A DNA stretch of 32,533 nt from a virus. Position numbers and translations under genes: made by a program. Below the pieces are notes generated by a model that had not been told where the DNA came from, searched no databases, and saw only the letters and a list, made by a program, of their open reading frames with translations. Shown here in pieces: positions 6,104 to 28,898 of this stretch (positions are counted from its first letter, which is position 1; each line of letters starts with the position of its first letter). Location of the stretch: the IMG/VR virus record IMGVR_UViG_3300005529_001093, positions 1 through 32,533 of that record; one strand, given 5' to 3'.

Positions 6104-9100
6104 TCAGAGCGTGGCGGGAGCGGGCCAGCCGCGGCCGACGGTTGCGGAGATCTGATAGACCCTCACCGCAACCGAGGACTGCGCCGATCCGAAGTCAGCC
6201 GTTTGCTGCGCGGCGGTGTAGGTCGCAGCCGGCGACGTGGCCGAAAGGGTGCGGACCGCATCGGAGCCGTCGAGGATATCGACTTCGTAGCGTTCGCTTT
6301 CTTCGTTGAGCGGAACATCGGTTCCGTCGGACCACACACCGCCGAAGCGCGTGCGCCGAACCCAGGCGATCGAAAGGTCGCCCGCGCCGTTGCGGATGCC
6401 GGCGACATGCACCGGCGACCACGGCATCAGGCCCACACACCGCGCGGTGAACGTTTCCTGCTGCCAGGCCACGTCGGACGGATCGAGGCTACTTGGTCCC
6501 CATTTGTAGAAGCGAGCCACTCCACGTTCCGCGAGCGCGGCATGAATCTGTGCGACGGCCGCGTCAAGCACGACGACGCGTGCGCCGGCTGTGACCGGCG
6601 ATTGCATGGCGTGTTCGGTCCCGAGGCGACCGCGCAGCAGTTTGGTGAGATCGTAGACGCCTGCGCTGACGAGTGTCGCGGTGCAGTACTGGAGGATTTC
6701 CCAGTCGCCGGTGGCGTTCTTGATCATGAGGGCGTTTGCCCGGCCGGAGAGCACCGTGTCCTCGGGCACGCTTGCCAGCGCGCCCGAATAGAGCTGAACG
6801 CGTAGCGTATTGACTACGTCGTAGTAGTCCGTCGGTCCCGAATAGAAGTCGAAGAGCGTTTCGCCGATTGCCGCCCTGATGGGCAGGACAGTATCGATGG
6901 CGAAGCTGTCGCCGGTCGGGCTGTCCAGGAGCGTGACGCCGGCAAACGGCGCGGCCGAGACGCCCACATAGGGCGCGTAGGCGACATCGCTGTCGCCTAG
7001 CATCGGAACATCCATGAGTTCCAGGATGGCGCGGCCGTAGACCGGCGGTGGATTGAACACAGGGGTCGTGTCTCCCGGAAGCGGTGGCGCGTAGATGGCG
7101 CCCTCCGACCGTTGCCCTTCCATCGATCGCGCCCAGGCGTCGTTGATCCTCGTGAGGCGGAACTCGCGAGCCCGCCCGTCGATGACGAGGTTGATCACGT
7201 CGCTGGCGTCGAGGGCGATCTGATCAGGCGGCAATCCGTGCTTCGAAGTCTCCCTGCCGATCCAGGCCTCGGCAAGAGCCCGGTCCGCGATGGCCTGTGC
7301 CTGAATCTCGTCCATGACGAGCGGGACGGTCACGTCCGTCTTGCGCTCCGAATAGCCAGCGATACGGCTCGCCGAGACGGTCCCCGACTCATAGTTGCCG
7401 CTTCCGTCGATGAACGTCACCGAGACGATGTCCGGCAGGTCGGTTTCCTGAGCGCGCGTGAGCGTGACGATGTCGCCCTGCTCGGACAGGACGCAATCGT
7501 CGGGATCGAATGTGCCGACGGCGGCGCGCCCGCGAGGCAGGAAGCGGATCAGGCCCTCGCTCTCGACCGCATCGAACGCGAAGGCGTTCATCAGCAGCTC
7601 GATCTCCGCGCGCGGGCTCATCGGCCGGTCGCGGACATAGCCGACCACGATCCCGGCGAGGGCCGTCACGTCGTATTCGATGAACCCGACGCGCTTGCAG
7701 CGCTCCGCCACCAGCGCGGCCAAATCGGCGAGCCCGACCTTGCCGTTGAGCCAATGCCCAAGCGGCCAGAGGTCGCCGTCACCCCATGCGTCGGTGCGGG
7801 ACGGCCATGCCGGGTAGGGCCGAGCGTCAAATGTCCACACCGCAACAAGTCCGATCATTGGGCCGCCGTAAACCGAGGATGTCGGATTGTTGGCGCCCCA
7901 ATAGGAGAGCATCGCCTCGATGCCGCGGCGCTGGATCAGGTCATCGCGCGTGCCCCGCGAATGGTAGGGCAGCAGGCTTTCCGACGACTTTGGATCAAAG
8001 AAGACATTCGGCTGATTGGTCCCCTTGTCGACCGACGGGATGCCGAATTCGGTGAAGCGGATCGGCTTCGACTGCGCCACCCAGCCTGTGGGCGATCCGC
8101 TCTGGACGCCGCCGGGCCGGTTGTAGTGCTGATTGAGCCACCAGTTGCGAAAATCCTTGGCGCGGAACACCCACGGCTTTCCGTAGGCGCCGTCCGTGAT
8201 CGCTGTGCGAGCCTGCGTGTCGCGTGCGTTTGCGTCGGCATAGTACCAATCGTAGTCCTCGCCGCCTTCAACGTTTCCGCGGAGGTAGCCTAGATCGTAA
8301 ATCGAAGCGGCGCCGGCGAGGGCATCGAGGTGCGCATTGCCGTCCCGCCAATCGGAGAGCGGCACGTAAAGATCGACGCCGACGAAATCGACGTTGCCGT
8401 CTGACCACAGCGGATCGAGGTGAAAGAACAGGTCGCCGGTGCCGTCGCCCGGATTGTAGTTGTTGTATTCCGACCAATCCGCCGCGTAGCCGACCTTCAC
8501 GCCGCTGCCTAGGATCGACTTCACGTCTGCGGCGAGCGTCTTCATCCTCGCCACGGCCGGAAAGTTGGTTGCGCTGTCGCGAACCGTCGTCAGCCCCCTG
8601 AGCTCGGACCCGATCAGGAAGGCGTCCACTGCGCCGGAGTCGACCGAATTGATCGCGGCGCAGAGCTTCGCGTAGTGCAGGATGAAGCGGCGGAAGCTCC
8701 ATTCGCTCGGCCCCGAATAGTTCGTCGTGACTTCGTTTGTGCTGCCGTTCACCGAGACGGTGATGTTGGAAGCGGCAACTGCTCCAAAGAACGAGTTGAT
8801 CTGCGTGGTGGCCCCGGAAGTCTTGTCGACCGTTCCGGGCCGCCCTGGCGCCGGCGAGCAGGTGATGCGCCCGCGCCAGGGATAGATCGGCTGACCTGCG
8901 CTTCCGGTCCACGGATCGGTCAGGGCGTTGCCTGCGGCGATGTCCATGAACACGAAGGGATAGAAAATGACCGAGTGACCGCGCGCCTTCAGGTCGCGAA
9001 TCGCCCGCACGACCGAATCGTCTGACGGAGTGCCACCATAGGCCGGGCGGCCATCGACGGTGCTGACCACCAACGCGGCGCCGCGCGTGAGCGTGTGCAC

Positions 9101-10030
9101 CTTCCAGGAGTTCGGCGTGGTCGTCTTTGCCGAGACTTCGACCTTCGGCCGGATCGTGCAGGTTCCGGCGCGTAGATCGTCGCCGAACCATCCCACGACC
9201 AGCAGAACGGTGCCGGTGTTCGGAATCGATGCTTCGAGATCATCGAGAGCGACGTTCCAGTCTGCCGTGTCTTGCCCCGCGAATTGGTTTTCTGGCGTCG
9301 TCGCCCCACCGCCGAGATCGCGTGTGTGGACTATGGTGTCGTAGACGCGCTCGCCGGCGCCCGGGATCAAGGTAATCGCCTGGATGATATCCTCGAGCCC
9401 CGATCCATCCGAAGGCGAAACGCGGCGGAACACCTCGAACATGAGCTGCGGCAGACGGTTGCCGAACTGCGTGATCTGGAGGTTGTCGAAGACAACGTAG
9501 GCCGTGCCGCGATAGGCCGGCGTGTTATCCGTGCCTTCGATTCCCTCGATCAGCGAATCTGGCGACTGCCCGGCGGCGCCGCGATGCAGGCGCATCGTGA
9601 CGCCGGTCATGTCGAGTTGCTTGCCGTCGGCCCAGACTCTGCCGACCCTATCGATCACGCCCTCGCAGAGCCCGACAGCGAAATTCGCATAATAGGTGTA
9701 GGTGGTCGTTTCGACCGTGGAGCCACCGCCACCCTTGCCGCCGCCGCTCGATTCGTTCTTGGCGACTTCCTTGAACTTGGTCGCCCAGATGATTTGACCC
9801 GCGAGCCTCGTTCGGCCGGCGATCTCCGGGATCGGCGCGCCCTCGGTCGAGGCCTGCACCTGCAGATTGTCGAGACGCGGACCTTCCTGCTTCTGCGGTC
9901 CGGGACCGAACAGACGTGCATCGATGTAGCTTCCGGCGACGGTCGCAGCCGCGGTCGCCACGGCCGTTATCCACGCAGCGGCGCCCTGCGTCAGGGCCGT
10001 GGCCGCGACGGTCAGAACGAGGGTCGCCAT
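6104..10030 (-). CDS. Tail tip/host-specificity protein with GTA TIM-barrel domain (RcGTA gp15-like)
   Basis: A 1308-aa protein, close to the length of RcGTA gp15 (about 1300 aa). It opens with an Ala-rich hydrophobic stretch (residues 1-40), then an LQVQASTEGAPIPEIAGR-type segment typical of central tail hub/fibre proteins. The middle part (about 340-770) matches the GTA TIM-barrel-like domain, with a start near VRAIRDLKARGHSVIFYPF, a VGVDLYVPLSDW strand and a WTFDARPYPAWP segment. About 800-980 fits the Phage-tail_3 domain. The C-terminus is Ig-like and beta-rich. It should sit at the tail tip and contact the cell surface; in RcGTA the orthologue is a structural part of the megatron. It lies 5 nt after the NlpC/P60 gene. 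Confidence 0.9.
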   Translation of the reverse strand: MATLVLTVAATALTQGAAAWITAVATAAATVAGSYIDARLFGPGPQKQEGPRLDNLQVQASTEGAPIPEIAGRTRLAGQIIWATKFKEVAKNESSGGGKGGGGSTVETTTYTYYANFAVGLCEGVIDRVGRVWADGKQLDMTGVTMRLHRGAAGQSPDSLIEGIEGTDNTPAYRGTAYVVFDNLQITQFGNRLPQLMFEVFRRVSPSDGSGLEDIIQAITLIPGAGERVYDTIVHTRDLGGGATTPENQFAGQDTADWNVALDDLEASIPNTGTVLLVVGWFGDDLRAGTCTIRPKVEVSAKTTTPNSWKVHTLTRGAALVVSTVDGRPAYGGTPSDDSVVRAIRDLKARGHSVIFYPFVFMDIAAGNALTDPWTGSAGQPIYPWRGRITCSPAPGRPGTVDKTSGATTQINSFFGAVAASNITVSVNGSTNEVTTNYSGPSEWSFRRFILHYAKLCAAINSVDSGAVDAFLIGSELRGLTTVRDSATNFPAVARMKTLAADVKSILGSGVKVGYAADWSEYNNYNPGDGTGDLFFHLDPLWSDGNVDFVGVDLYVPLSDWRDGNAHLDALAGAASIYDLGYLRGNVEGGEDYDWYYADANARDTQARTAITDGAYGKPWVFRAKDFRNWWLNQHYNRPGGVQSGSPTGWVAQSKPIRFTEFGIPSVDKGTNQPNVFFDPKSSESLLPYHSRGTRDDLIQRRGIEAMLSYWGANNPTSSVYGGPMIGLVAVWTFDARPYPAWPSRTDAWGDGDLWPLGHWLNGKVGLADLAALVAERCKRVGFIEYDVTALAGIVVGYVRDRPMSPRAEIELLMNAFAFDAVESEGLIRFLPRGRAAVGTFDPDDCVLSEQGDIVTLTRAQETDLPDIVSVTFIDGSGNYESGTVSASRIAGYSERKTDVTVPLVMDEIQAQAIADRALAEAWIGRETSKHGLPPDQIALDASDVINLVIDGRAREFRLTRINDAWARSMEGQRSEGAIYAPPLPGDTTPVFNPPPVYGRAILELMDVPMLGDSDVAYAPYVGVSAAPFAGVTLLDSPTGDSFAIDTVLPIRAAIGETLFDFYSGPTDYYDVVNTLRVQLYSGALASVPEDTVLSGRANALMIKNATGDWEILQYCTATLVSAGVYDLTKLLRGRLGTEHAMQSPVTAGARVVVLDAAVAQIHAALAERGVARFYKWGPSSLDPSDVAWQQETFTARCVGLMPWSPVHVAGIRNGAGDLSIAWVRRTRFGGVWSDGTDVPLNEESERYEVDILDGSDAVRTLSATSPAATYTAAQQTADFGSAQSSVAVRVYQISATVGRGWPAPATL

Positions 10031-10035
10031 GGAGA

Positions 10036-10476
10036 TCAGTCCGCGAGATCAGGAAACGAGAACGCGAAGCGCAGGCGGCGGCGCGATCCGCCTCCGGTCC
10101 AAAGCGAAACCTCGGCGACCGGATGGGCTTCGATCGAATGCACCATGCGGCCGGGCGCGGTCAGAAAAGCGCAGTGCTTGGCCGGCGAGTGGTCCTTCAT
10201 CGCGAAGAGCAGCACGTCGCCGTGCCGGATATCGCCGATCGCGACCGGAATCATGTGCCTACCGGCCGCTTCCGCGAGCGTCTCGCGGCCGATCGCCTCC
10301 GCCCAGTCGCGCGTATAGGGCGGCGGCTGTTCGGGTTCTTCGCCGTAGATCGCCCGCCAGACGCCGCGCACAAGCCCGAGGCAATCGCAGCCGACACCTT
10401 TGAGCGACGCCTGATGCACATAGGACGTGCCGATCCAGGAGCGCGCTTCGGCGACGATGTCCGCTCGGCTAACCAT
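10036..10476 (-). CDS. NlpC/P60 tail-associated peptidoglycan peptidase (RcGTA gp14-like)
   Basis: A 146-aa protein of the phage NlpC/P60 family. The catalytic Cys is C32 in GVGCDCLGLVRGVWR; candidate His residues are H101 (KHCAFL) and H113 (MVHSIEAH). The frame is open upstream to 10560, but ATG 10476 is preferred: it has GGTGGA about 7 nt upstream, overlaps the DUF2163 stop by only 8 nt, and gives the usual family length. The enzyme likely cuts cell-wall peptides during DNA entry or helps assemble the tail tip. It is the third gene of the RcGTA-like tail-tip series. Confidence 0.88.
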   Translation of the reverse strand: MVSRADIVAEARSWIGTSYVHQASLKGVGCDCLGLVRGVWRAIYGEEPEQPPPYTRDWAEAIGRETLAEAAGRHMIPVAIGDIRHGDVLLFAMKDHSPAKHCAFLTAPGRMVHSIEAHPVAEVSLWTGGGSRRRLRFAFSFPDLAD

Positions 10477-11359
10477 TGAGCGATCCACCGTCGTTGCCAT
10501 CGCCCTGCTTGGCATAGGACAGCGCGAAATCGTTGCCCGGCATGTGCGGAAATCCGCCAAAGTTGATGACGTTGGAGAAGCGGTCGCGGCAAGTCGCCAA
10601 GGTCTTGTCGCAACCAGCAGTGATCGAGAACGTGTCGCCCACCTGAATCGGCCGTGGCATCGGCAAGAACAGCGATAGCCGCGAGTTCGGGCTGCCCTGC
10701 GAATGCGCCTTCACCTCGATCGCGACACCGGCGTTGTCACCGGTCGCCCACACGATCTTTCCGCGGCTGAAGATGCCCGAGGCGAACGAACCGATGCCGC
10801 TCGCGGTGAAATCGAAATTGCTGATGACACTCGCGACCGTCCCGCTGCCGTGATGCGCGGACGCGCCAAGATCAATGCTGCAGCGCGTATCGCCAAGCTC
10901 CCAGGCGCAGGTGCGCTGGAAGACGCGGCCGGCGCTTTGGTCGAGGCGCGCGGCAAGCCCCCGAAGCTCTGCCGAGAACGCCGTTTCACTGCGCGTGACC
11001 TGGCCGAGGAAGCCGGATCGCAGGACGACGCGCTGCGACACGTCCTGCCAGTTCACCCGCATGATCGCGACCGACGCGTCGTCATAAAGTCCGGCGTTGA
11101 GGTCATCCTCGGTGATCGCGGCCGACGAGAGCGCGCCGTCCACGTCGAGGTTCGACACGCCAAGCCCGAGCTGATCTTCGATCGCGGTCGCGGTGAAGCC
11201 GCTCGCCGCCTTGTAGGTCGTGCCGTCGATCACGAGGTCGCGATCATGATCGGTAAAGCCCAGGACCGCACTGTCCTTCCGCTCGACGCGCCAACAATGG
11301 CAAAGGGTCGTGACTCCACCGCCAAGATGCGCGGCGAGGCCGGCGTCGAGCGTCTTCAT
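10469..11359 (-). CDS. DUF2163 tail-tip hub protein (RcGTA gp13-like)
   Basis: A 296-aa protein of the DUF2163/phage_BR0599 type. Hallmarks are the N-terminal HLGGGVTTLCHCWRVERKD and LGFTDHDRDLVIDG segments, and the C-terminal GDTFSITAGCDKTLATCRDRF motif with its paired cysteines, followed by FGGFPHMPGND. In RcGTA the equivalent protein is a baseplate hub component holding an iron-sulfur cluster through conserved cysteines; that this copy does so is inference from C-rich motif conservation. Its ATG overlaps the DUF2460 stop (ATGA), so the genes are coupled. Confidence 0.9.
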   Translation of the reverse strand: MKTLDAGLAAHLGGGVTTLCHCWRVERKDSAVLGFTDHDRDLVIDGTTYKAASGFTATAIEDQLGLGVSNLDVDGALSSAAITEDDLNAGLYDDASVAIMRVNWQDVSQRVVLRSGFLGQVTRSETAFSAELRGLAARLDQSAGRVFQRTCAWELGDTRCSIDLGASAHHGSGTVASVISNFDFTASGIGSFASGIFSRGKIVWATGDNAGVAIEVKAHSQGSPNSRLSLFLPMPRPIQVGDTFSITAGCDKTLATCRDRFSNVINFGGFPHMPGNDFALSYAKQGDGNDGGSLNG

Positions 11360-11946
11360 TCGTTGACCTCAGTGAGATTGATCTGCGGGACGATCTGCTG
11401 ATCCCAGGCGTTTGCCTGGACGGGAAGCTTGTCGGTATCGAAGCGCACGGGCACGTCGAAATCGAACGTCGCAGTCGGCGCCGATCCCGGCGCGCTCCCA
11501 AAAGTTACCAAGCCTGTCAGATAGTCGATGCCGGACGGTGTGACCGGCGATCCGCCGATTTTGATCGCAACGGTTCCCAGAACCGGCTTCGTGACCGTGC
11601 GGACGTGTTCGTATCCGCCGATATTGTACCGCTTGACGAGTTGCCAGACCGTGGGTGTCACCTGAACCATCGCCACGCCGGCCGCGCCGTAGTCGCTCCA
11701 ATCCTTGAAGCGGAACGAGTAGCCGCGTCCCTTCACGATGTAGAAATGGGCGATGACCGCCTGCATTTCGGCGCGGGTGCGGATGCCGGTCGAGATGTTC
11801 CATTCGCCGCGCGCGTTCGCCCATTGGATGTTGCGGCGCTCCGATCCCGATCCCAGCGTCACCACGTTGGTCGAAAAGCCGGGTCCGCCGGTCGCGCCGC
11901 GTGCCACCGCGTCCGGAAAGGAAATGTCGAGGAAGGGCTGCGGCAT
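11356..11946 (-). CDS. DUF2460 distal tail protein (RcGTA gp12-like)
   Basis: A 196-aa DUF2460 protein: N-terminal FLDISFPDAVARGATGGPGF, central RNIQWANARGEWNISTGIRT, and KGRGYSFRFKDWSDY, all family signatures. In RcGTA and related siphophages this is the distal tail protein ring joining tube and tip. It starts 3 nt after the tape-measure stop on the minus strand and ends in an ATGA overlap with the DUF2163 gene. Length is as expected for the family. Confidence 0.92.
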   Translation of the reverse strand: MPQPFLDISFPDAVARGATGGPGFSTNVVTLGSGSERRNIQWANARGEWNISTGIRTRAEMQAVIAHFYIVKGRGYSFRFKDWSDYGAAGVAMVQVTPTVWQLVKRYNIGGYEHVRTVTKPVLGTVAIKIGGSPVTPSGIDYLTGLVTFGSAPGSAPTATFDFDVPVRFDTDKLPVQANAWDQQIVPQINLTEVNE

Positions 11947-11949
11947 GGT

Positions 11950-14900
11950 TTATCTCCCGCGCATCCCGATCTGCACGGCGCGTGAGAGGTCGGCCGCGAG
12001 TTGAGTCCGGCTTGCCTGAAACGCTGACGGGCTGGGCGTCTGGATCGTGACGTAGACGTTTGGTTGGGCGCCGCGGTCGCCACGGTTGTAGCGCCGCGTT
12101 TCCTCCCGGTTGAGCACGCGCTCGCCGCGTTGGAGGATTGCCGGCACCTCGTCGGGCGAAAGGAACGCACCGTCATGCAGACGCGGCGCGAAATGGAACA
12201 AGGCTATCGGCACCGCGCGCGTGGCTGAGAGTTGCTCGGCCATGCCGCCGGCGTGCCCGACGCCGAAGCCTTTCATGATCGACCCGATGATGCCCCCGAC
12301 CGAGGACATGGTTGGTAGGTTGGAGCCGAAGAGAAGGTTCTTCAGCGGGTTCAGCAGGGCGAGCTTGATCAGTTCCTTGTTGATGTCGAGGATCGCCGCG
12401 CGTCCGGCGTCGGCCCATGACTCCCAATCGGTCTTTCCTTCCGCGATCAAATCGGCGAAGTGTCCGAACACGGTATCGGTTAGGCCGACGAGCTCTTGCG
12501 TCGATGACCGCGCCAGCGAAAGCGACTGGTTCAGCCGCTCGATCGCGCCGGCATTGGCGATGACGACCTGCGCTTCCTTGGACCCGAGATCGATGCCCTG
12601 CTGGATAAGCTGCTGCTTGGCCTGAAGCTGCGCGATCTCGATCGCGGCCAGGGACTCGTTCGTGCCGGCGAGTTCGATCTGCCTCTGCAGAAGCGTAATC
12701 TGGTTCGTCTGCGTCTCGATCTGGCCAAGAGCGGCGTTGCGCGCCTCCTCGGCATTCAGCAGGCCGTAGGCGCCGCGCAGGGCGTCGATAACGCGGGTCA
12801 GCGTCGTCTTCGCATCGCCTTCCGCGAGTGACTGCGCCACGAGCAGCGGGCGAAGCGCCTGCTCAACCTGCATCTGGCGCCGGGCCTGCTCGATAGTGAT
12901 CGCGCCTGACGCGATGGCGTCGTTGAGGCGCTTCTGCGCGGCGGCTTGAGCACCCAGATCATCGGCCGATTTAGCGGACTGCGCGGCGGTCTGCGCGATC
13001 TCTTCGGCGAGGATCTGCCGCATACGTGTCTCGACATCGACGCCGTTGCGGATCGCCTCGGTGAGCGCCTTTTGTCTCGCCTCAGCTTCCTGCGCCGCGG
13101 CGGCGCCCTTGAGATAGGCGTTCGCCACTTCGAGCGAAGCCCGCGCATTCACGGTGAGCGTGAGCGACTGCTCGGCAATCGCGTGCGTCGCCTCGGCGCG
13201 CGCCTTCGTTCCGGCCCGCGTGATCTCCGCTTCGGCCGTTGCTGTCGTGACAACCTGCCCCGACAGCTCGATGCGGCGCCGTTCCTCCGCAATGGCGGCT
13301 CGCTGCGCCGGCGTCTTGGCTTCAAGCGCCTGGATTTCAAGCTCGTCCAGCCGGCGGGCCTTCTCGGCGGGAGCGAGCCAGGTCTGAACGGCCCGCGTCA
13401 CCGCGTCATAGGCGGCTTCGACCTGCGCGAGGTCCGTCACCTTCTGCCTGGCCAGCGGATCGGTCAGGGCAGTCGCCAGACTGGCCTGTTGCTGCCGCAA
13501 TGCCTGGAGATCGTTGAAGCCCGGCGTGGCGCTCCGGGCGATGTCGCCCGCCAACACGGAGGTGCGGGCTGCGAGGGCGTCCGCCTTCGCTTGATCGGCA
13601 CGCCGTTGGAGCTCGTCGAGCTGTCGCCTGACATTGGCGATGTCGGCGTCGATATCCGAAAGTGGACGCTCGAAGAGATACCGCGCGCCCCACGGGCCGG
13701 TGACCCTGGCGCGCTCCTGCTGCAAATCCTCCAGCCTCTGCTGGAGCGTCGGATCGGTGGCGCGATCGATCGCGCGGCCGATGGCATCCACCGCGTTCGA
13801 CGCGGTGCGCGTCACGAAATCCCAGGCCTGGCCGAGCGCCGTCGTCGCCTCGGCGGCGTCAACAAGGGACGGCTTCAGGGTGTCGAACAGAACTCTTTGG
13901 GCGGCGGTGAGATCGTTCTGAGCCGCGAGCGTCTTGATAAGTTGTCGTGTCCGATCGTCGTAGCCGCCGACCTTGGCGTTGAGAACATCGACGCCCCGAG
14001 CCGGATCGGCGAAGGCGTCGGCGAGTTCCTTGGTCGCAGCCGCGATGTCCTGGCCGGTGGTTGCGGCGTAGTTCTTCGCCGCGGTAATCAAGTCGCCGAA
14101 TTGGTCGACGCCGATTCTGCCGGTGCGGAGGAACGCCACCTCCATGTCGCGGGCCGCCGCCACCGAAATGCGCCCGGCAGCCGAGGCGCTGTCGGCGATC
14201 CGATTAAGTTGGTCGACCGTGGAACCGGCGGCGCGCCCGACGCCGGCGGTGGCAACCTGAAGCTCCTTCTGCGCGGTGATGTAGCTGTAGTAGGCGTAAA
14301 GCGCCGTTCCACCGATCGCGGCGAGCCCGGCGACCAACAAGGTGGTGGGCGACACCAGCCCGAGGACGACGCGACCGAGTTCCTTTAGGACGCCGCCGAC
14401 GCCCATGCCCGACCCGGCGAAGACCTGCGCGATCTGGGTGCCCTGCTGCAACAGGACAGTGAGCGGCCGCTGCCCGCCAGCGAGGCCGACGACAACATCG
14501 TTCAGCTGGTAGCCGAGATTGACCACCTGGTAGCTCGCGAGGCGGGAGCCTTCGCCGACGCCCTTGAGCGCCTTCGCCGTGGCGTCGAAGCGGGTCCGCG
14601 CGAGCTGATGCGCTGCGGCTTGTTCCTGCGCCGAGATCGTTCCCGCCTTTGATAGCGCGTTCGCCTCGGCGATCTCGGTATTGAGCCTTGCCTGTGCGGC
14701 GCCGAGTGGGTCGATCTGTGCGCGCAGTGCCTTGGTACGCGCTTCAAGGTCTTCGGTGGCCTTCGCGGCGTCCTCGAACACCTTCGCGGATTCGCGGGCG
14801 GAGCTGGCACCGGACGTGCCAATCCCCATGAAGGCATTGAACTTGCGCTGCGCGTCGTCCGCGCTGGCCGCCTGCTTGGCTGCTTGGGCGAGACGCTGAA

Positions 14901-15060
14901 GGCGCTGCGTTTCGCGATCGGTGGCCACGCCAGCGGCGTCGATCGATGCGGCGGTCTTGCTGAACGCGTCCTGGCCGGCCTTGCCGACCTCATCGAACGC
15001 TCGCTTGACGTCATCCTTGCCCGTGACGCCGATGCGGATCGAGACGTTGCGGTCGGTCAA
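11950..15060 (-). CDS. Tail tape measure protein, TTG start
   Basis: A 1036-aa protein, mostly long Ala/Gln/Arg/Glu helices, with the prophage tail-length (PF06791-type) segment: SYQVVNLGYQLNDVVVGLAG and VLLQQGTQIAQVFAG at about 176-215, then a hydrophobic membrane-like stretch at about 231-261 (LVSPTTLLVAGLAAIGGTAL). The C-terminus has the usual tape-measure ending (HDGAFLSPDEVPAILQRGERVLNREE). It sets tail length and probably inserts into the host membrane on DNA entry; at about 0.15 nm per residue the tail would be near 150 nm (inference). The start is TTG at 15060, overlapping the chaperone stop as TTGA, which implies coupled translation. Confidence 0.92.
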   Translation of the reverse strand: MTDRNVSIRIGVTGKDDVKRAFDEVGKAGQDAFSKTAASIDAAGVATDRETQRLQRLAQAAKQAASADDAQRKFNAFMGIGTSGASSARESAKVFEDAAKATEDLEARTKALRAQIDPLGAAQARLNTEIAEANALSKAGTISAQEQAAAHQLARTRFDATAKALKGVGEGSRLASYQVVNLGYQLNDVVVGLAGGQRPLTVLLQQGTQIAQVFAGSGMGVGGVLKELGRVVLGLVSPTTLLVAGLAAIGGTALYAYYSYITAQKELQVATAGVGRAAGSTVDQLNRIADSASAAGRISVAAARDMEVAFLRTGRIGVDQFGDLITAAKNYAATTGQDIAAATKELADAFADPARGVDVLNAKVGGYDDRTRQLIKTLAAQNDLTAAQRVLFDTLKPSLVDAAEATTALGQAWDFVTRTASNAVDAIGRAIDRATDPTLQQRLEDLQQERARVTGPWGARYLFERPLSDIDADIANVRRQLDELQRRADQAKADALAARTSVLAGDIARSATPGFNDLQALRQQQASLATALTDPLARQKVTDLAQVEAAYDAVTRAVQTWLAPAEKARRLDELEIQALEAKTPAQRAAIAEERRRIELSGQVVTTATAEAEITRAGTKARAEATHAIAEQSLTLTVNARASLEVANAYLKGAAAAQEAEARQKALTEAIRNGVDVETRMRQILAEEIAQTAAQSAKSADDLGAQAAAQKRLNDAIASGAITIEQARRQMQVEQALRPLLVAQSLAEGDAKTTLTRVIDALRGAYGLLNAEEARNAALGQIETQTNQITLLQRQIELAGTNESLAAIEIAQLQAKQQLIQQGIDLGSKEAQVVIANAGAIERLNQSLSLARSSTQELVGLTDTVFGHFADLIAEGKTDWESWADAGRAAILDINKELIKLALLNPLKNLLFGSNLPTMSSVGGIIGSIMKGFGVGHAGGMAEQLSATRAVPIALFHFAPRLHDGAFLSPDEVPAILQRGERVLNREETRRYNRGDRGAQPNVYVTIQTPSPSAFQASRTQLAADLSRAVQIGMRGR

Positions 15061-15718
15061 GGTTCACTTTCCCTGCGGTAGGCGCGCACGACGAGCGCCT
15101 CGATCTCGGGCAGCGCATCAATGAGGATTGGACTGAGGGCGCCCATCGCGTCCGCGAGGAGAAGGACGGCGGCGAAGTCGAGCCCGTAGACGCCGCCCAT
15201 GACGGCACGCACCTGACCGGCCGAGCGGCTGAAGACTTGCCAGGCCGCAATGCCGTCGTCGGTCTGAGGCGCGTGTTCTAGGTACGGGCAGGCCCCGCAG
15301 CTTTCCGGGCACGCGGCGCAGTAGGCTTCGCCCCCGCCGAAGTGCCAGTCGGCGAGAGCGAGAAGGCGTTTTTTTCATCGGCCCGGATCAAGGCTGGCGT
15401 GACATAGAGCCGGTCGATGGCGTCGAACGCCTGCCAGAGCTCAAGCAGTGCCTCGATGTTCTCCGGCGTCGGCGCGACCGCATCGCCATCGGCGTTGCCA
15501 ACGCCGCCCCACTCGAGGACTCCCCAGCGCGCGATGCTGCGCGTGAAGGCGGCGCTGCCCACAAAAATCGCTTCGCCGTCTGGTGTCTTCATCGCATCGG
15601 CGGCGGCTTGCCGTGCGGCGATGATCGCGGCGATGGTGATAGGGCGAACTTTGATCCGCACACCCGGGATGAGATCGAGCCAAAAGGGGTCGCGCTGCTG
15701 CGCGGCAAGCTTGAGCAT
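15057..15718 (-). CDS. Tail assembly chaperone GT fusion made by -1 frameshift (DUF1799-like C-terminal part)
   Basis: The product would be 220 aa: 117 codons of the upstream chaperone, a -1 slip at A AAA AAC (15368-15374), then 103 residues in the new frame ending at 15057. The second frame has a TGA immediately before the A run and no convincing start of its own, yet is clearly protein-coding: it reads ALADWHFGGGEAYCAACP, a CxxCx3CxxC cluster, then AAWQVFSRSAGQVRAVMGGVYGLDFAAVLLLADAMG, resembling DUF1799 proteins of phage chaperone pairs. The cysteine cluster may bind zinc (inference). As in lambda G/GT, this pair should coat the tape measure and recruit tail-tube subunits. Its stop overlaps the tape-measure TTG. 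Confidence 0.82.
15278..15718 (-). CDS. Tail assembly chaperone G-type (unshifted product)
   Basis: A 146-aa protein with its ATG at 15718, preceded by GAGGA 7 nt upstream; the longer open frame to 15946 overlaps the tail-tube gene and is not used. The body (WLDLIPGVRIKVRPIT, IIAARQAAADAM, ENIEALLELWQAFDAIDRLYVTPALI) is helical as in lambda gpG-like and HK97 gp13-like chaperones. At codon 117 it meets the slippery heptamer; ribosomes that do not slip add about 29 low-complexity residues and stop at 15278. It sits between tail tube and tape measure, the standard place for this pair. Confidence 0.85.
   Translation of the reverse strand: MLKLAAQQRDPFWLDLIPGVRIKVRPITIAAIIAARQAAADAMKTPDGEAIFVGSAAFTRSIARWGVLEWGGVGNADGDAVAPTPENIEALLELWQAFDAIDRLYVTPALIRADEKNAFSLSPTGTSAGAKPTAPRARKAAGPART
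15368..15374 (-). promoter_or_regulatory. -1 ribosomal frameshift site A AAA AAC
   Basis: Read on the minus strand, a G is followed by seven A and a C; the zero frame is GAA AAA AAC, so the heptamer A AAA AAC has the canonical X XXY YYZ phase. A -1 slip moves ribosomes into the DUF1799-like frame, which has no other good start. A GC-rich stretch follows that could fold as a stimulator, but I did not define a stem. Such sites are conserved in the tail-chaperone genes of tailed phages. Confidence 0.88.
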
Positions 15719-15762: not shown

Positions 15763-17049
15763 TCAGTAGGCGGAAACGTCGTTCACCAGCGTCGCCGTGC
15801 AGGTCTTCGCTAGGGTGGGGTGTTCCGACGCCTGCCAGTCGAAGGTCGCCTGCACGCCAGCCGGCCCCGTGATTGGGAGCTTGGGCTTGGGTAGATAGAC
15901 GTTGTGCACGGTGAACCGGAGCAACTTTCCGGACGCAATCGACCACTCGAAGATCAGCTCGATCGGGGTTCCAGCTACCGCAAGATCGAGCAGCGTTGTA
16001 TCCGCGAAGCGAATACCGACTTGACCAGTGACAGCGAGCATCGCGGGGTCGGCCCCGGCGATTCGGCCGTCTGGTCGGATGACCTCGACCTTGTCGAGGC
16101 CGTTCGAATAGCTGAAATTCCCAGAGACGACATTTCCGAGCGGAACGCCGTCGCGGCGGATTTGCCCCGTGAACTGGGTGAAACGTTCGATCACCAGTTC
16201 CGTCGGCGAACCTGCGCCTGAGGAGCCGCTGCGCGTCTCGCCTTGTGCGACGACGCTGACGGTTCCGTTCAGCAGCCCGGAGCGTTGCAGCTGGATCGCC
16301 AGCTTGTCCGCCATCGCACCGAAATTCATGCCGTAGCTTGGCACGTCGGGCATGCCGACTTCGATCGAGGCGGACGGCAGTGTAAGCAGACCGGACGTGA
16401 AGGTGTGGTTGTACGGCCCGGAAGCCGAGCCCCCGGCGAGCGTGCTGCCAGAAGGCGTCGCCTTGGAGTCAGGAGATGTCGAGGCGGCCAACGCTACGCT
16501 GTTGCCGCCGGTGCCGACCGTGTCGGACACAATCAGGATCGAGTCGCCGGCGAGGTTGAGCGTGTAGGTCTGGGCAGAGAAGGCCGAAACGGCGCTCCCG
16601 TTCATGCCGATGACGGCGTTGGAGAGAGTCTCAAGCAGGCTTGCGCCGATTTTGCTCTGGTTGCCGGCGGGCGTGCCGGTCACGAACGTCCAGGCCTGCC
16701 CGCCGATCGAGATCGTGCTGTTGTTCGCCGGCTGTCCGCTGAAGGCGAAATTGCCCGTCGCAGCGATGCCCTGGGCCGATGTTGGCGCTCCTAGCAGGAG
16801 CTTCAACCAATAGCCGAAGGTCCTGAGATCGAGCGGCACTACCACGTCGCCATCGTTGTTGATGACATCGCGCGCGGGCTGTTGAGGATCGCGCCCGTAG
16901 CCGAGCAGATCGCTTTCGATCAGGTTCTGCTGTTCGCCAAGCGCCGCCGACACGAACGGCACCTGCTTGAAGCCGGAGCCGGGCGAAACGCCATAGGTGG
17001 ATTCGAACGCCAAAGCCATGACGGCGTTGGCGCCGCGCGCGCGGGCCAT
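15763..17049 (-). CDS. Major tail tube protein with inserted beta domain
   Basis: A 428-aa protein. The N-terminus (ALAFESTYGVSPGSGFKQVPF, then a WLKLLLGAPT segment near 81-90) and the part after residue 210 (YNHTFTSG, LPSASIEVG, YGMNFGAMADKL) read as one continuous tail-tube protein of the phage tail tube 2 type. Between them, about residues 94-209, lies a Ser/Thr/Gly-rich segment (ISIGGQAWTFVTGTPAGNQ...ILIVSDTVGTGGNSVAL) that looks like a separate beta-sandwich. The tube core should form the hexameric ring lumen; the insertion would sit on the outside. A strong AAGGAGG precedes ATG 17049, as expected for an abundant protein. Confidence 0.85.
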   Translation of the reverse strand: MARARGANAVMALAFESTYGVSPGSGFKQVPFVSAALGEQQNLIESDLLGYGRDPQQPARDVINNDGDVVVPLDLRTFGYWLKLLLGAPTSAQGIAATGNFAFSGQPANNSTISIGGQAWTFVTGTPAGNQSKIGASLLETLSNAVIGMNGSAVSAFSAQTYTLNLAGDSILIVSDTVGTGGNSVALAASTSPDSKATPSGSTLAGGSASGPYNHTFTSGLLTLPSASIEVGMPDVPSYGMNFGAMADKLAIQLQRSGLLNGTVSVVAQGETRSGSSGAGSPTELVIERFTQFTGQIRRDGVPLGNVVSGNFSYSNGLDKVEVIRPDGRIAGADPAMLAVTGQVGIRFADTTLLDLAVAGTPIELIFEWSIASGKLLRFTVHNVYLPKPKLPITGPAGVQATFDWQASEHPTLAKTCTATLVNDVSAY

Positions 17050-18905: not shown

Positions 18906-20951
18906 TCAAGCCGGGTTGGCGCCCGCGTTGTAGAAGACGCCGCGGAAGTCGAGCGCTTTGGCAGCGAAGTCGTGCCGCACTTTGATCTCGACGCCGTCCA
19001 CCTCGAAGCCCGCCCGCTGATCAATGAACGGTTCGGTCTGCCCTTCGAGGTGGGCGTATTCGACCGTGTCGACAAGGTTCGGATCGGCGGCGAGATACCA
19101 GGGCTGCGGACCGCCGGTCTTGAACAGGCGCGGCTCCTCGACGATTTGCAGCGATCCGGTAAAGGCATTCACGTCGGCGGCCTTCACCGGCGTGGTCGCG
19201 GCAATCATCTTGCGGGCTTCGATCGAGCGCTGACCGGGTGGGACGAGGATGTAGCGCGGCCGAGCGTCGATATACTGCTTGTCCGCCCCGGCGCCGTCGC
19301 CGAGATCCTTCTGCTGGGTCATCTTCTCCCAGGCCTCCGAAAGCGCCGTTTCTGCGATCACCGCAGCCGTGCCGATGTTGCCGTGGTTGGCATGGAAGAG
19401 GGCCACGGTGTCGGCGAGGACGGCGTTGGCGAGGAGCACGTTGTAGACGATGCCCGATTCCAGGTCGGCTGCCCGCTGCCCGGCGGTGCCGAGCGCGCGA
19501 TCGAAGGCCCGGAGGTCGTCGTTGATGATCGCCTGCCGCGTGAGTGCGACGATGCGGCCGTAGGTGGCGAGCTGATAGGACTCGCGGCCTTCGGCGATCG
19601 ATCCATAGCTGAACTCGGCGCCCTCCATCACCGCCTTGAGCGCAGGGAAGCTGCCAATCTGCGTCGGATACATCGGCTTGAAGTCGGTCGCCGTGGTGCC
19701 GCGCGCCCACTGCTGGAACGTCCGCGGCGTTCCCGCGTAAGCTTGGCGCAGGCGCTTGCCCGCGACCGCCGCCAGGATCAGCGGGAAATCAGAAGTCGAC
19801 TGCATTCCGACCGCGCGTGTCGCCTGATAGGCGATCTCGTTCGGCGTCAAACCGCGGGTCCGCACGCCGGCGGCCTCGAGACAATCCCTCGCCACATCGA
19901 TCAGTCGCATGCCGCGATATTCGCGGGCGCGGTCCGTCATGTGGAAGGACTGCGGCTGCGCCCGATGGAGCATCGCCTCGGCGATAGCCTCGCGGCGCGT
20001 CACGGTAGCGTCGAGGCCGCCCGCCGGCATGGAGATCTGCGAGTGGCCGGTGCCGCGCGCATCGCGCTCCGCCAGCTTGTCGAGAATGACTTTGCGCGCG
20101 TCAGGGACCGAGACGTTTCGCTTGACGAGATCGTCGGCGACTGCGCGGTCGAGTGTGAATCGATCGACCAGCCCGGTGATCGTAGTAATGCGCTCCTGCT
20201 CCTCTGCGCGGACCTGGTCGGCATTGACCACGGTCGTTGCCGGAGGCGAAGCCGCGCGGCTCGCGTCGGGAGCGGGATCGTGCGGGTCGGCGGCCGGCGT
20301 GTTGCCCGGCACGTCGTCGTGCTGCGACATGGCATGGTTCTCCTGGTTGTCGGGCTTCACCCGGTTGGTGATCTCGAAGGGAAATAGGCGGTCAGGCGGC
20401 TCCGACCTGACTTGGGCGCCTGGATCGGCGCCGATCGTTACGAAGCTGATTTCGTAGGGCGTCCAGCGCTCGACGAACCACTTCTCGACATCGCCGGCCT
20501 GCTCGGATTTCTCGATGCGAACCTTGTCGATCGCGTAGCCGACTGAGACGTTGCGGACGATCTTGTCGGCGACCAGCGCGAACATGCGATCCGCCGCCTC
20601 GTCGACACCGGCCTTGGGAAAGCGCACGCTTGCCTTGCCTTCGCCGCCGTCGATCGATGCGCGTTCGACCACCGCCACCTGCGACTGCGTCGACCAGACG
20701 TTGTGGCTGTCGAGAACCGCCGCCCCAGAATTCAGGCGGGATAGATCGACAGCCTTTTCCGACACGACGAGGATTTCGTCGTAGTTGAGAATCCGCCCGC
20801 TTTCCCAATCGTACTTGCGCCGACGAACTGCCGCTCCCGTCGTCCAGACGAGATCGATCGAGCGGGCCTCGGCATCGATGGAGGAAACCGGCGCAAGCCG
20901 GGTCTGCATCGGGAGCGCGTCGCGGCGCTCCCGAAGGGCTGGTTCAGGCAT
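18906..20951 (-). CDS. Prohead protease-major capsid protein fusion
   Basis: A 681-aa protein. Residues 1 to about 190 are an HK97/U35-type prohead protease: H83 in VLDSHNVW, S136 in VRNVSVGYA and a likely third residue E167 in WTPYEISFVTIG. A polar Asp/Pro/Ala-rich stretch and a helix (about 205-290) could act as scaffold. The rest is an HK97-fold capsid protein (TSDFPLILAAVAGKRL, FPALKAVMEGAEFSYGSIAEG, VALTRQAIINDD, RPRYILVPP). Protease-capsid fusions of this kind are known in phages. AGGAGG precedes ATG 20951. An in-frame ATG at 20330 with its own Shine-Dalgarno could yield a protease-free 474-aa form. The protease should remove the scaffold during maturation. Confidence 0.93.
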   Translation of the reverse strand: MPEPALRERRDALPMQTRLAPVSSIDAEARSIDLVWTTGAAVRRRKYDWESGRILNYDEILVVSEKAVDLSRLNSGAAVLDSHNVWSTQSQVAVVERASIDGGEGKASVRFPKAGVDEAADRMFALVADKIVRNVSVGYAIDKVRIEKSEQAGDVEKWFVERWTPYEISFVTIGADPGAQVRSEPPDRLFPFEITNRVKPDNQENHAMSQHDDVPGNTPAADPHDPAPDASRAASPPATTVVNADQVRAEEQERITTITGLVDRFTLDRAVADDLVKRNVSVPDARKVILDKLAERDARGTGHSQISMPAGGLDATVTRREAIAEAMLHRAQPQSFHMTDRAREYRGMRLIDVARDCLEAAGVRTRGLTPNEIAYQATRAVGMQSTSDFPLILAAVAGKRLRQAYAGTPRTFQQWARGTTATDFKPMYPTQIGSFPALKAVMEGAEFSYGSIAEGRESYQLATYGRIVALTRQAIINDDLRAFDRALGTAGQRAADLESGIVYNVLLANAVLADTVALFHANHGNIGTAAVIAETALSEAWEKMTQQKDLGDGAGADKQYIDARPRYILVPPGQRSIEARKMIAATTPVKAADVNAFTGSLQIVEEPRLFKTGGPQPWYLAADPNLVDTVEYAHLEGQTEPFIDQRAGFEVDGVEIKVRHDFAAKALDFRGVFYNAGANPA
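20328..20344 (-). promoter_or_regulatory. Internal in-frame start (AGGAG plus ATG) in the protease-capsid gene
   Basis: On the minus strand AGGAG (20344-20340) stands 9 nt before an in-frame ATG at 20330 (codon 208, reading MSQHDDVPGN). The site lies exactly between the protease domain and the scaffold-like region. Translation from here would give a 474-aa scaffold-capsid protein without protease, as lambda does with C and Nu3. This is inferred from sequence alone. Confidence 0.55.
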
Positions 20952-26102: not shown

Positions 26103-26807
26103 TCAGGGCCGGGCAGGCCCGGCCACATTCCAGAATACGATGCGGCCCGGACCCTTCCGGGCCGTCATCGTCTCCCACGCTTTCGCGTCGTAATGCGGAT
26201 CGGACGGAAAAGGCGGCATCGTCTTGGCCACATCCGAAAATGGGCGCGGATGAATATGGATCGCGGCGCCCGCCACGTCATGAGCATCAAGTTCCCGCCC
26301 GACCTGAACCACATGGCGGCGGGCTCGCGGCCACGCCTTCGCCAGCGCACGGGCGAGCACGCCAGAACCAGCGGCGCACCAGACTTCATCGGGATCAAGC
26401 CCGGTTGCGAGAGCGGCCTCGGCGAGGCGGGTAATCGCTTCGGGCAGATCGACGCCGAACGGCACGAGCCGTGCGCCGCTAGCCTTCGCATACTCCTTCG
26501 CCCGGGCCTGCACGACCGAGAGATATCCAGGCCGAACCGGCACGACCTTCGCGCCGAGCCTTGCGGCTTCGAGCGTTCGCGGATGAAGTTTCGCTCGCGC
26601 CGCGACAAAAACGGTAGCCCGCTTGCCGAGATCGCGCGCGACCGTGGCGAGCGCCGTCTGCGCGCCGCCTTCGGCCGGACTCGCGTAAATCGCCTCGTCT
26701 GTCCCCTCGAACAGCACTGACATGAACCGCGCCTTGGTGCCGCCGGGAAAAAGATCGTCCCGGATCACCAACACGCCGCTATGCTCGCGAACGACCGGCG
26801 GCGTCAC
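26103..26807 (-). CDS. PLP-dependent enzyme-like phage protein
   Basis: A 234-aa protein starting with GTG at 26807, overlapping the methyltransferase stop as GTGA. It looks like a reduced fold-type II PLP enzyme (ACC deaminase/D-cysteine desulfhydrase-like): RDDLFPGGTKARF places a candidate PLP lysine at K25, YASPAEGGAQTALA (41-54) is a substrate/cofactor loop, and CAAGSGVLARAL (144-155) is a glycine-rich phosphate-binding loop. Similar proteins occur in phages beside ParB and DNA methyltransferase genes; their reaction is unknown to me. At 234 aa it is shorter than the roughly 330 aa usual for cellular enzymes. A role in phage DNA modification is speculation from context. Confidence 0.75.
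   Translation of the reverse strand: MTPPVVREHSGVLVIRDDLFPGGTKARFMSVLFEGTDEAIYASPAEGGAQTALATVARDLGKRATVFVAARAKLHPRTLEAARLGAKVVPVRPGYLSVVQARAKEYAKASGARLVPFGVDLPEAITRLAEAALATGLDPDEVWCAAGSGVLARALAKAWPRARRHVVQVGRELDAHDVAGAAIHIHPRPFSDVAKTMPPFPSDPHYDAKAWETMTARKGPGRIVFWNVAGPARP
26107..26124. terminator. GC-rich inverted repeat at the convergent gene junction
   Basis: GGCCGGGC (26107-26114) and GCCCGGCC (26117-26124) are a perfect inverted repeat with 2 nt between them, so about six base pairs could form around a 6-nt loop. It lies just after the abutting stop codons of two converging genes, inside the end of the PLP-fold gene. It may serve as a terminator for plus-strand transcripts; there is no T run. 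Confidence 0.4.
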
Positions 26808-27754
26808 GGAAGGGCCTCTGCGCCATCAGCAGCGAGCTGGGTTTCGATCTCGCCGAACTCGACTTCGCCGCAAGCTTCCGTTGCGCGCCGGGGATCGCCC
26901 TTAACGAAGACAAGCACGCTTTGGTGCGTGCGACCGAGCTTGCGGGCGGCAGTGAATTGTCGGCCGGTGCGGATCGGCAGCGAGCCAACCGCGGTGACGA
27001 GAATTGCATCGTTGTAGAGATGGGCGCCCGCCGCCTCGAAGGCCTCAATCGTTTGGCCCGGCAGGTTCACATAACAGCCGCGAGCATCACGCACGTCGCC
27101 GACGACCCAGACCGCAAAGCGATCGTTCTTCAGCTTCGCGATGGCGTCGCCGATAATCGCGGCCAGTGCTTCGAAGAAGGCGGCCTCGTCCATAGTCGAG
27201 AGATCGGCCGGATCGTCAGAATAGCGTTCCAGATTCCAATAGGGCGGGCAGGAGAAGACCAGGTCCGCCTCGACAGTGGCGGCAAGTGCACCAAGATCGC
27301 GCGCATCGCCGGTGAGCCACTCCGGGAACGGTTCGGCGGCGAGGGCCAGCTGCGCGCGGTTTGCGGCGACCTGTTCGGGCCGCAATTCGATTCCGACATA
27401 TCGGCGACCAAGCCGGGAGGCGACAATGCCGCGAACTGAACCGCCCGCGAAGGGATCAAGGACGATGCCGCCCGGCGGGCAGAACCAGCGATAGGCGATC
27501 TCGCACAAGACCGGATCGAAGATCGATGTGCCCGAAGCGGTCGGTGCGTCCGAGGCTTCGTAGTGCTCGGCGAGAAACTCCTCGGTCGTCAATTCACGGC
27601 CGAGCTCGGCTTCGCGGGCGCGCTTCTTCGAGTAGAAGCCAGGGTCGCCCGAGGTGTGCGAGGGCATCAACACGCCGCCATTCGAGGGCGCGCCGACCTC
27701 ATGCTCGCCGCGCATCAGATCCTGGCCGAAGGTGCGGGCGAGACCCTTAGCCAT
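26804..27754 (-). CDS. DNA methyltransferase (N4-cytosine/N6-adenine type)
   Basis: A 316-aa protein with methyltransferase motif I DPFAGGSVRG (100-109), RRYVGIELRPEQVAANR after it, and the catalytic motif IV CPPY (169-172). The order (motif I before motif IV) and CPPY fit amino-methyltransferases acting on adenine N6 or cytosine N4. The segments ARTFGQDLMRGEHEVG and EELTTEEF-type (LGRELTTEEFLAEHYEA) are typical of phage copies that stand next to a ParB-domain gene. ATG 27754 overlaps the ParB-domain gene by 8 nt. No restriction enzyme gene is nearby, so it is likely an orphan that protects phage DNA or marks it for regulation. Confidence 0.9.
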   Translation of the reverse strand: MAKGLARTFGQDLMRGEHEVGAPSNGGVLMPSHTSGDPGFYSKKRAREAELGRELTTEEFLAEHYEASDAPTASGTSIFDPVLCEIAYRWFCPPGGIVLDPFAGGSVRGIVASRLGRRYVGIELRPEQVAANRAQLALAAEPFPEWLTGDARDLGALAATVEADLVFSCPPYWNLERYSDDPADLSTMDEAAFFEALAAIIGDAIAKLKNDRFAVWVVGDVRDARGCYVNLPGQTIEAFEAAGAHLYNDAILVTAVGSLPIRTGRQFTAARKLGRTHQSVLVFVKGDPRRATEACGEVEFGEIETQLAADGAEALP

Positions 27755-28490
27755 GGGCGGTCTTGTCCTTCTTTCCGGTCCAGCCACGATCCAGCGGGCG
27801 GGGCGAGCCACCCGGCGCTGCGTTGTTCCGGTTGCGATAGTGATTGAGGCCGGGCTCGGTCACGCCATCGGCGACGCCATAGGTCGCACCTTCGCCGCGG
27901 CCGAGTTCGGAGCGGATACCGAGATCGATCCAGGCGCGCTTGCGATCCTGCCACCAGCCCTTGCGGGCATCGAGTACCGAGAACGGCGGAATGCCGAAGC
28001 GTTCGGCAAGTGTCGCGCGTTGCGTTTCGTTCGAAGGATCGGGCGAAGTCTCACCGGCCGCCGGGCCATCGCCGCCAGTGTCGGCGACGAGGCCATCGAG
28101 CAGTCGGCCGAGTTCTTCCTCGGCAAAGCCCAGAAGATCGAGATCGAAGGCGTCTTCCCGGAGGGCCGCGATTTCAGCTTTGAGCATCGCGTCGTCCCAG
28201 CCCGCGTTTTCCGCGATCCGGTTGTCGGCGATGACCAGCGCTCGACGCTGGGATTCGGAAAGGTGCGAAAGCACGATCACCGGCACATCGGCGAGCCCGA
28301 GCTTCACGGCCGCGAGAACGCGCCCGTGGCCGGCAATGATCACATCGTCGGCCCCGATCAGCACCGGGTTCACGAAACCGAATTCGGCAATTGAGCCCGC
28401 GATCTGCGCGATCTGATCGCCCGAATGCGTCCGCGCATTGCGGACATAGGGGATCAGCCGCGCAATCGGGCGGGTCTCGATTGTCAGCAT
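27747..28490 (-). CDS. ParB-domain protein linked to DNA methyltransferase
   Basis: A 247-aa protein. Residues about 5-95 are a ParB N-terminal (Srx-like) domain: LIPYVRNARTHSGDQIAQIAGSI, FVNPVLIGADDVIIAGHGRVLAA with the GHxR box, and ALVIADNRIAENAGWD. The C-terminal part has FGIPPFSVLDARKGWWQDRKRAW, a segment I know from phage methyltransferase proteins. In this domain class some members bind CTP or act as nucleases; here a role in guiding the methyltransferase is inferred. Two ATGs lie side by side (28493, 28490); GGAG is 5 nt before the second, which is chosen. The longer open frame to 28733 crosses the repeat cluster and looks non-coding. Confidence 0.85.
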   Translation of the reverse strand: MLTIETRPIARLIPYVRNARTHSGDQIAQIAGSIAEFGFVNPVLIGADDVIIAGHGRVLAAVKLGLADVPVIVLSHLSESQRRALVIADNRIAENAGWDDAMLKAEIAALREDAFDLDLLGFAEEELGRLLDGLVADTGGDGPAAGETSPDPSNETQRATLAERFGIPPFSVLDARKGWWQDRKRAWIDLGIRSELGRGEGATYGVADGVTEPGLNHYRNRNNAAPGGSPRPLDRGWTGKKDKTAHG

Positions 28491-28493
28491 CAT

Positions 28494-28898
28494 GTCTCCG
28501 TTGACTGCGAACCGGGTGCGAACCGCGAACCTGTGGGCGGGTGCGAACCCGGTTCGCGAACCTGTCGCTAGCTCAAGGCCGCGCCTTTGCCGCCCGCATG
28601 CGTTGAGGGCCGGGAAGAACCTAAAGGGGGCGGGGGTCGGTCGCTTCGATGCGTCTTGCGCGTCGAAGGCGCGCGTGGTCGCTGCGTTCGCTGAATGCGA
28701 CGGTGCTAGGAAGCATGTCGACCACGCCTGCACCTCTCGCGATCATGGCAGGAAATATCGCCAAATCGTTTGAAAATGTCTCGCGCGAAGTTCGACGAAC
28801 TGGCGTCACCGTGCGCCTGTTGAGCGCTGGCGCGAGCCGTCCCCACGTCGTCGAACGCGCGTTCAAGTCGCCCCTACGCGCGCGCGAAGACGGGCTCC
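28494..28898. other. Weakly coding 405-bp stretch between ParB-domain and DUF6362 genes
   Basis: The part next to the ParB-domain start holds the GCGAACC repeat cluster (28507-28562). The rest has overlapping open frames on both strands, none recognised. A locally A/T-rich patch at about 28741-28800 contrasts with the GC-rich surroundings, as in an origin unwinding region or promoter. No rRNA, tRNA or clear terminator is seen. Confidence 0.4.
28507..28562. repeat. Cluster of five GCGAACC repeats with a 15-nt palindrome
   Basis: GCGAACC occurs at 28507, 28518, 28525, 28543 and 28556. An inverted copy GGTTCGC (28551-28557) makes the palindrome GCGAACC-C-GGTTCGC at 28543-28557. Spacings between starts are 11, 7, 18 and 13 nt. 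The cluster lies just before the ParB-domain start (28490). It looks like an operator array or iterons for a phage DNA-binding protein, with the HTH protein at 28899-29354, the ParB-domain protein or the primase-helicase as candidate binders (inference). Confidence 0.7.

Follow-up and report, generated by a model that had tools for sequence, protein, structure and literature searches.

The programmed −1 frameshift behind gpG and gpGT of phage lambda was reportedly described by Xu, Hendrix and Duda in 2004 and is reviewed in PMC5009743. In this phage, gpG forms a coat around the tape measure protein, gpGT uses its T part to bind the tail tube protein, and the molar ratio of gpG to gpGT is about 30:1 (PMC5009743). 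Low-level frameshifting between G and T is widespread among long-tailed phages, and the heptamer A_AAA_AAC is less shift-prone than A_AAA_AAG in E. coli (PMC5009743). A paper on Rhodobacter phages, RcKemmy and RcOceanus among them, treats such a frameshift as customary in genes for tail chaperones (PMC8601537).

The window, which is the whole stretch of 32,533 nucleotides analysed here and comes from a virus contig of 32.5 kb, contains a locus that we read with high confidence as a tail-assembly chaperone pair of the lambda G/GT type, made by programmed −1 frameshifting and carrying a four-cysteine (Cys4) domain in the shifted frame. Its features are listed in Table 1. The gene directly upstream encodes the Phage_tube_2 tail tube protein and the gene downstream encodes the TMP_2 tape measure protein, whose TTG start overlaps the stop codon of the T-like frame. 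This position between the tube and tape-measure genes is the classical place for a G/GT pair. A Phage_tube_2 protein also lies directly upstream in nine of ten divergent loci, while in the tenth the ORF picked is probably not the tube gene, a pattern that fits, but does not prove, a T domain serving that tube family. By analogy, Phage_tube_2 is the presumed partner of the T-like domain and TMP_2 that of the G-like domain.

Table 1. Features of the G/GT locus and its flanking genes, in window coordinates
Feature	Position	Strand	Details
Tape measure protein, TMP_2	11950..15060	−	E 4.7e-51; TTG start
Predicted GT fusion, complete	15057..15718	−	220 aa = 117 zero-frame + 103 shifted
−1 frame, T-like domain	15057..15374	−	105 codons from heptamer + stop TGA 15059-15057
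Stub ORF from GTG 15212	15057..15212	−	51 aa; could be reported by a gene caller as the shifted domain
DUF7697 (PF24752) match	15066..15203	−	residues 58-103 of shifted frame
ORF1, gpG-like tail assembly chaperone	15278..15718	−	ATG start 15718, 146 aa, zero frame
CxxCx3CxxC cluster, CAACPESCGAC	15288..15320	−	Cys19, 22, 26, 29 of shifted frame
RNA hairpin, proposed frameshift stimulator	15328..15361	−	13 bp (15361-15349 with 15340-15328), 8-nt loop
Trp10-His11, invariant, also in hairpin loop	15342..15347	−	from alignment
Slippery heptamer A_AAA_AAC	15368..15374	−	canonical phase GA(A AAA AAC) GCC, from reading of ORF1 frame
TGA closing the −1 frame, adjoining heptamer upstream	15375..15377	−	from reading frame
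Shine-Dalgarno-like GAGGAA	15723..15728	−	upstream of ORF1 ATG
Tail tube protein, Phage_tube_2	15763..17049	−	E 9.5e-52

ORF1, the G-like half, has a match to PHROG 313, "Tail assembly chaperone", at E 5e-11. ORF1 and the shifted part were folded as two separate AF2 models, the former with a pLDDT of 89.6. The top VIA-align match of the ORF1 model is the HK97 tail assembly chaperone 2ob9 (Z 5.5, 95 residues aligned, rmsd 5.2; next match Z 3.5), a likeness that is suggestive only. Foldseek of the same model against the PDB gave no match at E ≤ 0.001, and PDB sequence searches with profiles of ORF1 or of the shifted part returned nothing meaningful. With ORF1 as query, only four loci were found among viral contigs, which indicates that the G half diverges faster.

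Several other regions of the window merit description. The tail-tip genes (6104-11946) are of gene-transfer-agent type and comprise DUF2460, a Phage_phiJL001_Gp84_N/BR0599 hub, NlpC/P60, and a GTA_TIM megaprotein with Rcc01698_C. The capsid gene (18906-20951) encodes 681 aa with Phage_capsid_4 as its C-terminal half, and its RcKemmy relative is annotated as a capsid-protease fusion. A DNA methylase ORF (N6_N4_Mtase, 26804-27811) overlaps a ParB_N-like ORF (27747-28733; weak match, below cut-off). At the left edge (1-2985), the plus strand, opposite to that of the phage genes, encodes a protein of 286 aa that weakly matches Nuc_deoxyrib_tr and a UvrD-like helicase of 706 aa; this pair may be host DNA or a cargo/defence gene.

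The slip site and its conservation

The preliminary description placed A AAA AAC in canonical phase, with a TGA just before the A run and no good start for the −1 frame downstream. Reading of the minus strand confirms these points. From 15374 to 15060 the −1 frame contains no stop codon; it adds 103 residues after the slip (15368-15060) and offers its first start-like codon, GTG 15212, only past the cysteine cluster. The sequence AAAAAAC occurs once in the window with both strands counted, and shuffled sequences give a chance expectation of 1.39; the presence of the heptamer alone is thus not significant, and the argument rests on its exact position and its conservation.

Both were followed in 234 usable loci collected from IMG/VR contigs, annotated phages and bacterial genomes, which form 109 clusters at 90% nucleotide identity. 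In 108 of the 109 clusters, an invariant Trp-His is preceded, at a distance of exactly 27 nt, by an in-phase XXXYYYZ heptamer, which is A_AAA_AAC in 102, G_GGA_AAC in four and A_AAA_AAA in two. The two alignment-based scans relied on peptide patterns that lie no further upstream than the second codon of the heptamer and allow every residue to be encoded by any of its codons. As an independent check, genomes were searched with the DUF7697 model, which excludes the slip site, the WH motif and the cysteines. This search found 21 family loci in Alphaproteobacteria, some overlapping with the first set, and the heptamer stands at −27 in 20 of them; in L245 and L262, which have WS/WA variants in place of WH, its position was read by eye. 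The remaining locus, L260, is frame-broken and has an ATG before the domain. Within the heptamer, the second Lys codon of the shifted frame is AAA in all 109 clusters; AAA accounts for 40 of 182 Lys codons in the upstream zero frame and for 29 of 182 in ten genes of the window. The C that ends the heptamer may be under a further constraint from the invariant Arg3 (CGN). The conservation in related phages that the preliminary description had proposed to look for is present. Its core claim, a programmed −1 frameshift joining two tail-chaperone parts with a four-cysteine cluster in the shifted domain, is supported by the heptamer in 108 of 109 clusters and by cysteines invariant in an 83-row alignment.

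The lone exception among the clusters is a Methylobacterium prophage lineage (L059/L170) with A_CAA_AAC. Its shifted domain is intact (L059:2140-2821 and L170), and this heptamer is either a weaker slip site or a sign of a prophage in decay. A metagenomic locus, L057:2125-2761, lacks one A of the run together with about 30 nt that include WHFGGG, which places both parts in one frame. This in-frame fusion is probably decay or an assembly error and was set aside.

Indels in A runs are common errors, and with the in-frame fusion of L057 as an example it could be asked whether a sequencing error or gene decay has simply split one ORF in the window. In 108 of 109 clusters, which come from isolates as well as metagenomes, the two parts stand in one and the same frame relation, and isolate phages are so annotated. 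This conservation refutes the idea of decay or an indel, to which we assign a practically negligible probability. The frame might also be changed by RNA polymerase rather than by the ribosome: the seven consecutive As of the window, and the eight found in Nostoc and Synechococcus relatives, form runs of a kind that can allow transcriptional slippage. However, the four clusters with G_GGA_AAC at the same place have no long homopolymer, the heptamer keeps its codon phase, its Z base is C and not A in nearly all clusters, and a hairpin set off from the slip site by 6 nt is what ribosomal frameshifting usually involves. Polymerase slippage is accordingly judged very unlikely.

The second frame might also be expressed with no frameshift, either from its own internal GTG or ATG, giving products of about 51-77 aa, or by reinitiation after the ORF1 stop, and both GTG 15212 and the two separate ORFs of a Nostoc phage record speak for such a start. 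In the window, however, the best-conserved part of the domain, with the WH motif and the four cysteines, lies upstream of the first possible start. No ATG, GTG or TTG occurs in the −1 frame between the last stop and the WH motif in 51 of the 109 clusters, so the conserved residues of the shifted domain could be produced there only by frameshifting; in the remaining clusters the open −1 frame extends, by chance, beyond the heptamer on its upstream side. On the downstream side, no start codon is available within 87 nt of the heptamer in the 109 clusters. In 40 of them ORF1 terminates immediately ahead of the hairpin, at a stop codon some 10 nt from the first base of the heptamer. The preliminary description had named relatives whose second frame has an ordinary start as evidence against it; none was found, except perhaps the frame-broken L260. 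Independent initiation in place of a frameshift is thus extremely improbable; a short internal product made beside the fusion is possible.

The downstream hairpin

The proposed stimulator of the frameshift is an RNA hairpin that starts 6 nt after the heptamer, with a predicted stability of −24.5 kcal/mol (z −3.4). Its stem codes for the conserved peptide around LALAEWHFGGG, and the codons used there are unusual. Leu7 is CTC or CTT in 108 of the 109 clusters and never CTG, although these genes use CTG more than any other codon for Leu. GGG encodes Gly14 in 90 clusters, compared with about 15% elsewhere, and Ala6 and Ala8 avoid GCG across the clusters. These choices keep the pairing at Leu7 in 108 of 109 clusters, where 56 would be expected, and at Gly14 in 91 of 109, where 17 would be expected, the binomial p-values for these counts being indicative rather than true probabilities since the clusters share ancestry. 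When these peptides are recoded with synonymous codons, the folds become less stable: the native sequences have a mean z of −2.3, with 72 of 109 below −2. In 56 aligned sequences, 90.9% of cells are paired, and when the partner is slid along the alignment this value reaches at most 58.5%. Codon choice that preserves the hairpin shows selection on the RNA beyond that on the protein.

Strict covariation is sparse, with compensatory changes at three pairs, mostly the outermost. Applied to the alignment, in which few positions covary, RNAalifold preferred a different, weak structure and missed the 13-bp hairpin. The case for the hairpin therefore rests on the codon choice and the recoding tests. 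A scan against Rfam gave only two sub-threshold chance matches.

The shifted domain and its family

The four cysteines C19, C22, C26 and C29 are invariant in the 83-sequence alignment of the shifted domain, along with K2, R3, L7, A8, W10, H11, G14, G15 and P30. The CxxCx3CxxC spacing is kept in 103 of the 109 clusters. More distant relatives, such as L259, L264 and L266, keep four cysteines with other spacings, the gaps between Cys2, Cys3 and Cys4 varying among relatives. This variation favours a structural zinc site over an iron-sulphur site, and the cluster is probably such a zinc site, as judged from its sequence pattern. Alternatively, the frameshift would be as described here with cysteines that hold an iron-sulphur cluster or are redox-active. 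The four cysteines, the last followed by proline, recall ferredoxin-type motifs, and the lambda tail protein gpL carries an iron-sulphur cluster. The varied spacing is nevertheless better suited to structural zinc, and we consider the iron-sulphur or redox assignment unlikely. A further idea, that the Cys4 site must be loaded with metal (or reduced) before the fusion can bind the tail-tube protein, so that assembly would be sensitive to metal or redox state, is speculative and improbable; to our knowledge no such control of tail assembly is known for lambda-type GT. Among open-licence papers, a search for zinc together with tail assembly chaperones found nothing relevant by title or abstract.

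The preliminary description had announced a CxxCx3CxxC cluster before a DUF1799-like segment. The cluster is where it was said to be, and the family assignment has to be replaced. Against Pfam, the shifted part matches DUF7697 (E 4e-13; 49.5 bits, cut-off 27), while DUF1799 (PF08809), the family against which it had been proposed to compare these 103 residues, reaches 19.6 bits and falls under its cut-off of 26. Membership in DUF1799 was rejected on this score, which marks it as a weak, sub-threshold relative only. All 83 aligned shifted domains match DUF7697 at E ≤ 0.01 and 21 of the 83 match DUF1799 at the same threshold; all 83 also match PHROG 11212. No paper on DUF7697 was found among open-licence papers.

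The AF2 model of the shifted part has a pLDDT of 90.6. Its top matches in BFVD include several "tape measure chaperone" proteins with Foldseek probabilities near 1, at E values of 2e-3 to 7e-2 with none ≤ 1e-3, those of T1-like phages falling between 5e-3 and 7e-2. Foldseek against the PDB gave no match at E ≤ 0.001, and VIA-align gave only Z values under 4. The models of the G and T halves thus weakly resemble tail or tape-measure chaperones.

The database families cover only the last 50 or so residues of the shifted domain. The DUF7697 model has 52 positions and begins at shifted-frame residues 57-58, and PHROG 11212 has 55 and begins at residue 55, which is the codon GTG 15212. This coincidence with the start of the stub ORF suggests that both models were probably built from truncated stub gene calls that lack the cysteine half. 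The view that standard gene calling would miss the second protein altogether was too strong: stubs of about 50-77 aa can be found, as in the Nostoc phage record, where a second ORF of 77 aa is listed separately, and some relatives have been joined correctly.

Proposed mechanism and comparison with known systems

The heptamer with its phase and conservation, the absence of alternative starts, the selection on the hairpin, the invariant cysteines and the gene neighbourhood are all established by the sequences examined, and from them we infer the slippage and its level, the metal binding and the protein partners. The following sequence of events is proposed. Most ribosomes would translate ORF1 alone and produce the gpG-like protein. 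Some would pause at the hairpin with AAA and AAC in their decoding sites, step back one base on A_AAA_AAC and continue in the −1 frame. This would yield a fusion of 220 aa, its final 103 residues forming a compact domain that contains the four invariant cysteines. If lambda is a guide, the G part would coat the tape-measure protein and the T-like part would recruit the Phage_tube_2 tail-tube protein, with the slip setting a G:GT ratio that matters for tail assembly. Pairing a weak heptamer with a strong hairpin could plausibly keep that ratio low but steady.

The frameshift itself is of a well-known kind. The distinctive parts are the Cys4 shifted domain and the selected hairpin, of which no earlier description was found. 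The locus explains DUF7697 and PHROG 11212, both of unassigned function, as the C-terminal end of a tail chaperone made by frameshifting, from which gene callers apparently removed the cysteine-bearing half. It also provides a simple signature for annotating many alphaproteobacterial phages and prophages: Trp-His preceded at 27 nt by an XXXYYYZ heptamer, with a hairpin about 6 nt past the heptamer. In addition, it is a natural bacterial case of A_AAA_AAC, a heptamer described as weak in E. coli, together with a strong conserved hairpin, so that what the hairpin contributes can be tested directly.

A comparison with lambda gpG/gpGT shows the same gene order (tail tube, G, T, tape measure), a −1 shift near the end of G, a shifted domain that overlaps the start of the tape-measure gene and the same proposed role. 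The heptamer and the hairpin differ, and the two systems were compared in sequence by family scans alone, so that no further similarity is claimed. HK97 gp13/gp14 likewise has an annotated −1 frameshift, and its chaperone 2ob9 is the structure to which the ORF1 model aligned best. A third resemblance is to DUF1799 and the T1-like tape measure chaperones, exemplified by Enterobacter phage F20, in which the cores GMNGPTGLDY and VMGGVYGLDF correspond; the T model has F20 and similar models named "tape measure chaperone" among its matches, but the shifted part scores below the DUF1799 cut-off. The preliminary description had held that the four-cysteine cluster is absent from lambda GT, and this is correct: lambda T has none, and neither do the shifted part of HK97 gp14 and the F20 protein.

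The Rhodobacter phages RcKemmy and RcOceanus and their relatives, in contrast, have a homologous shifted domain with 43-44% identity and the same cysteine motif. They also show the same frame relation, and their tail assembly chaperones are annotated as a joined CDS. The difference lies in the slip site, which is G_GGA_AAC in these phages and A_AAA_AAC here.
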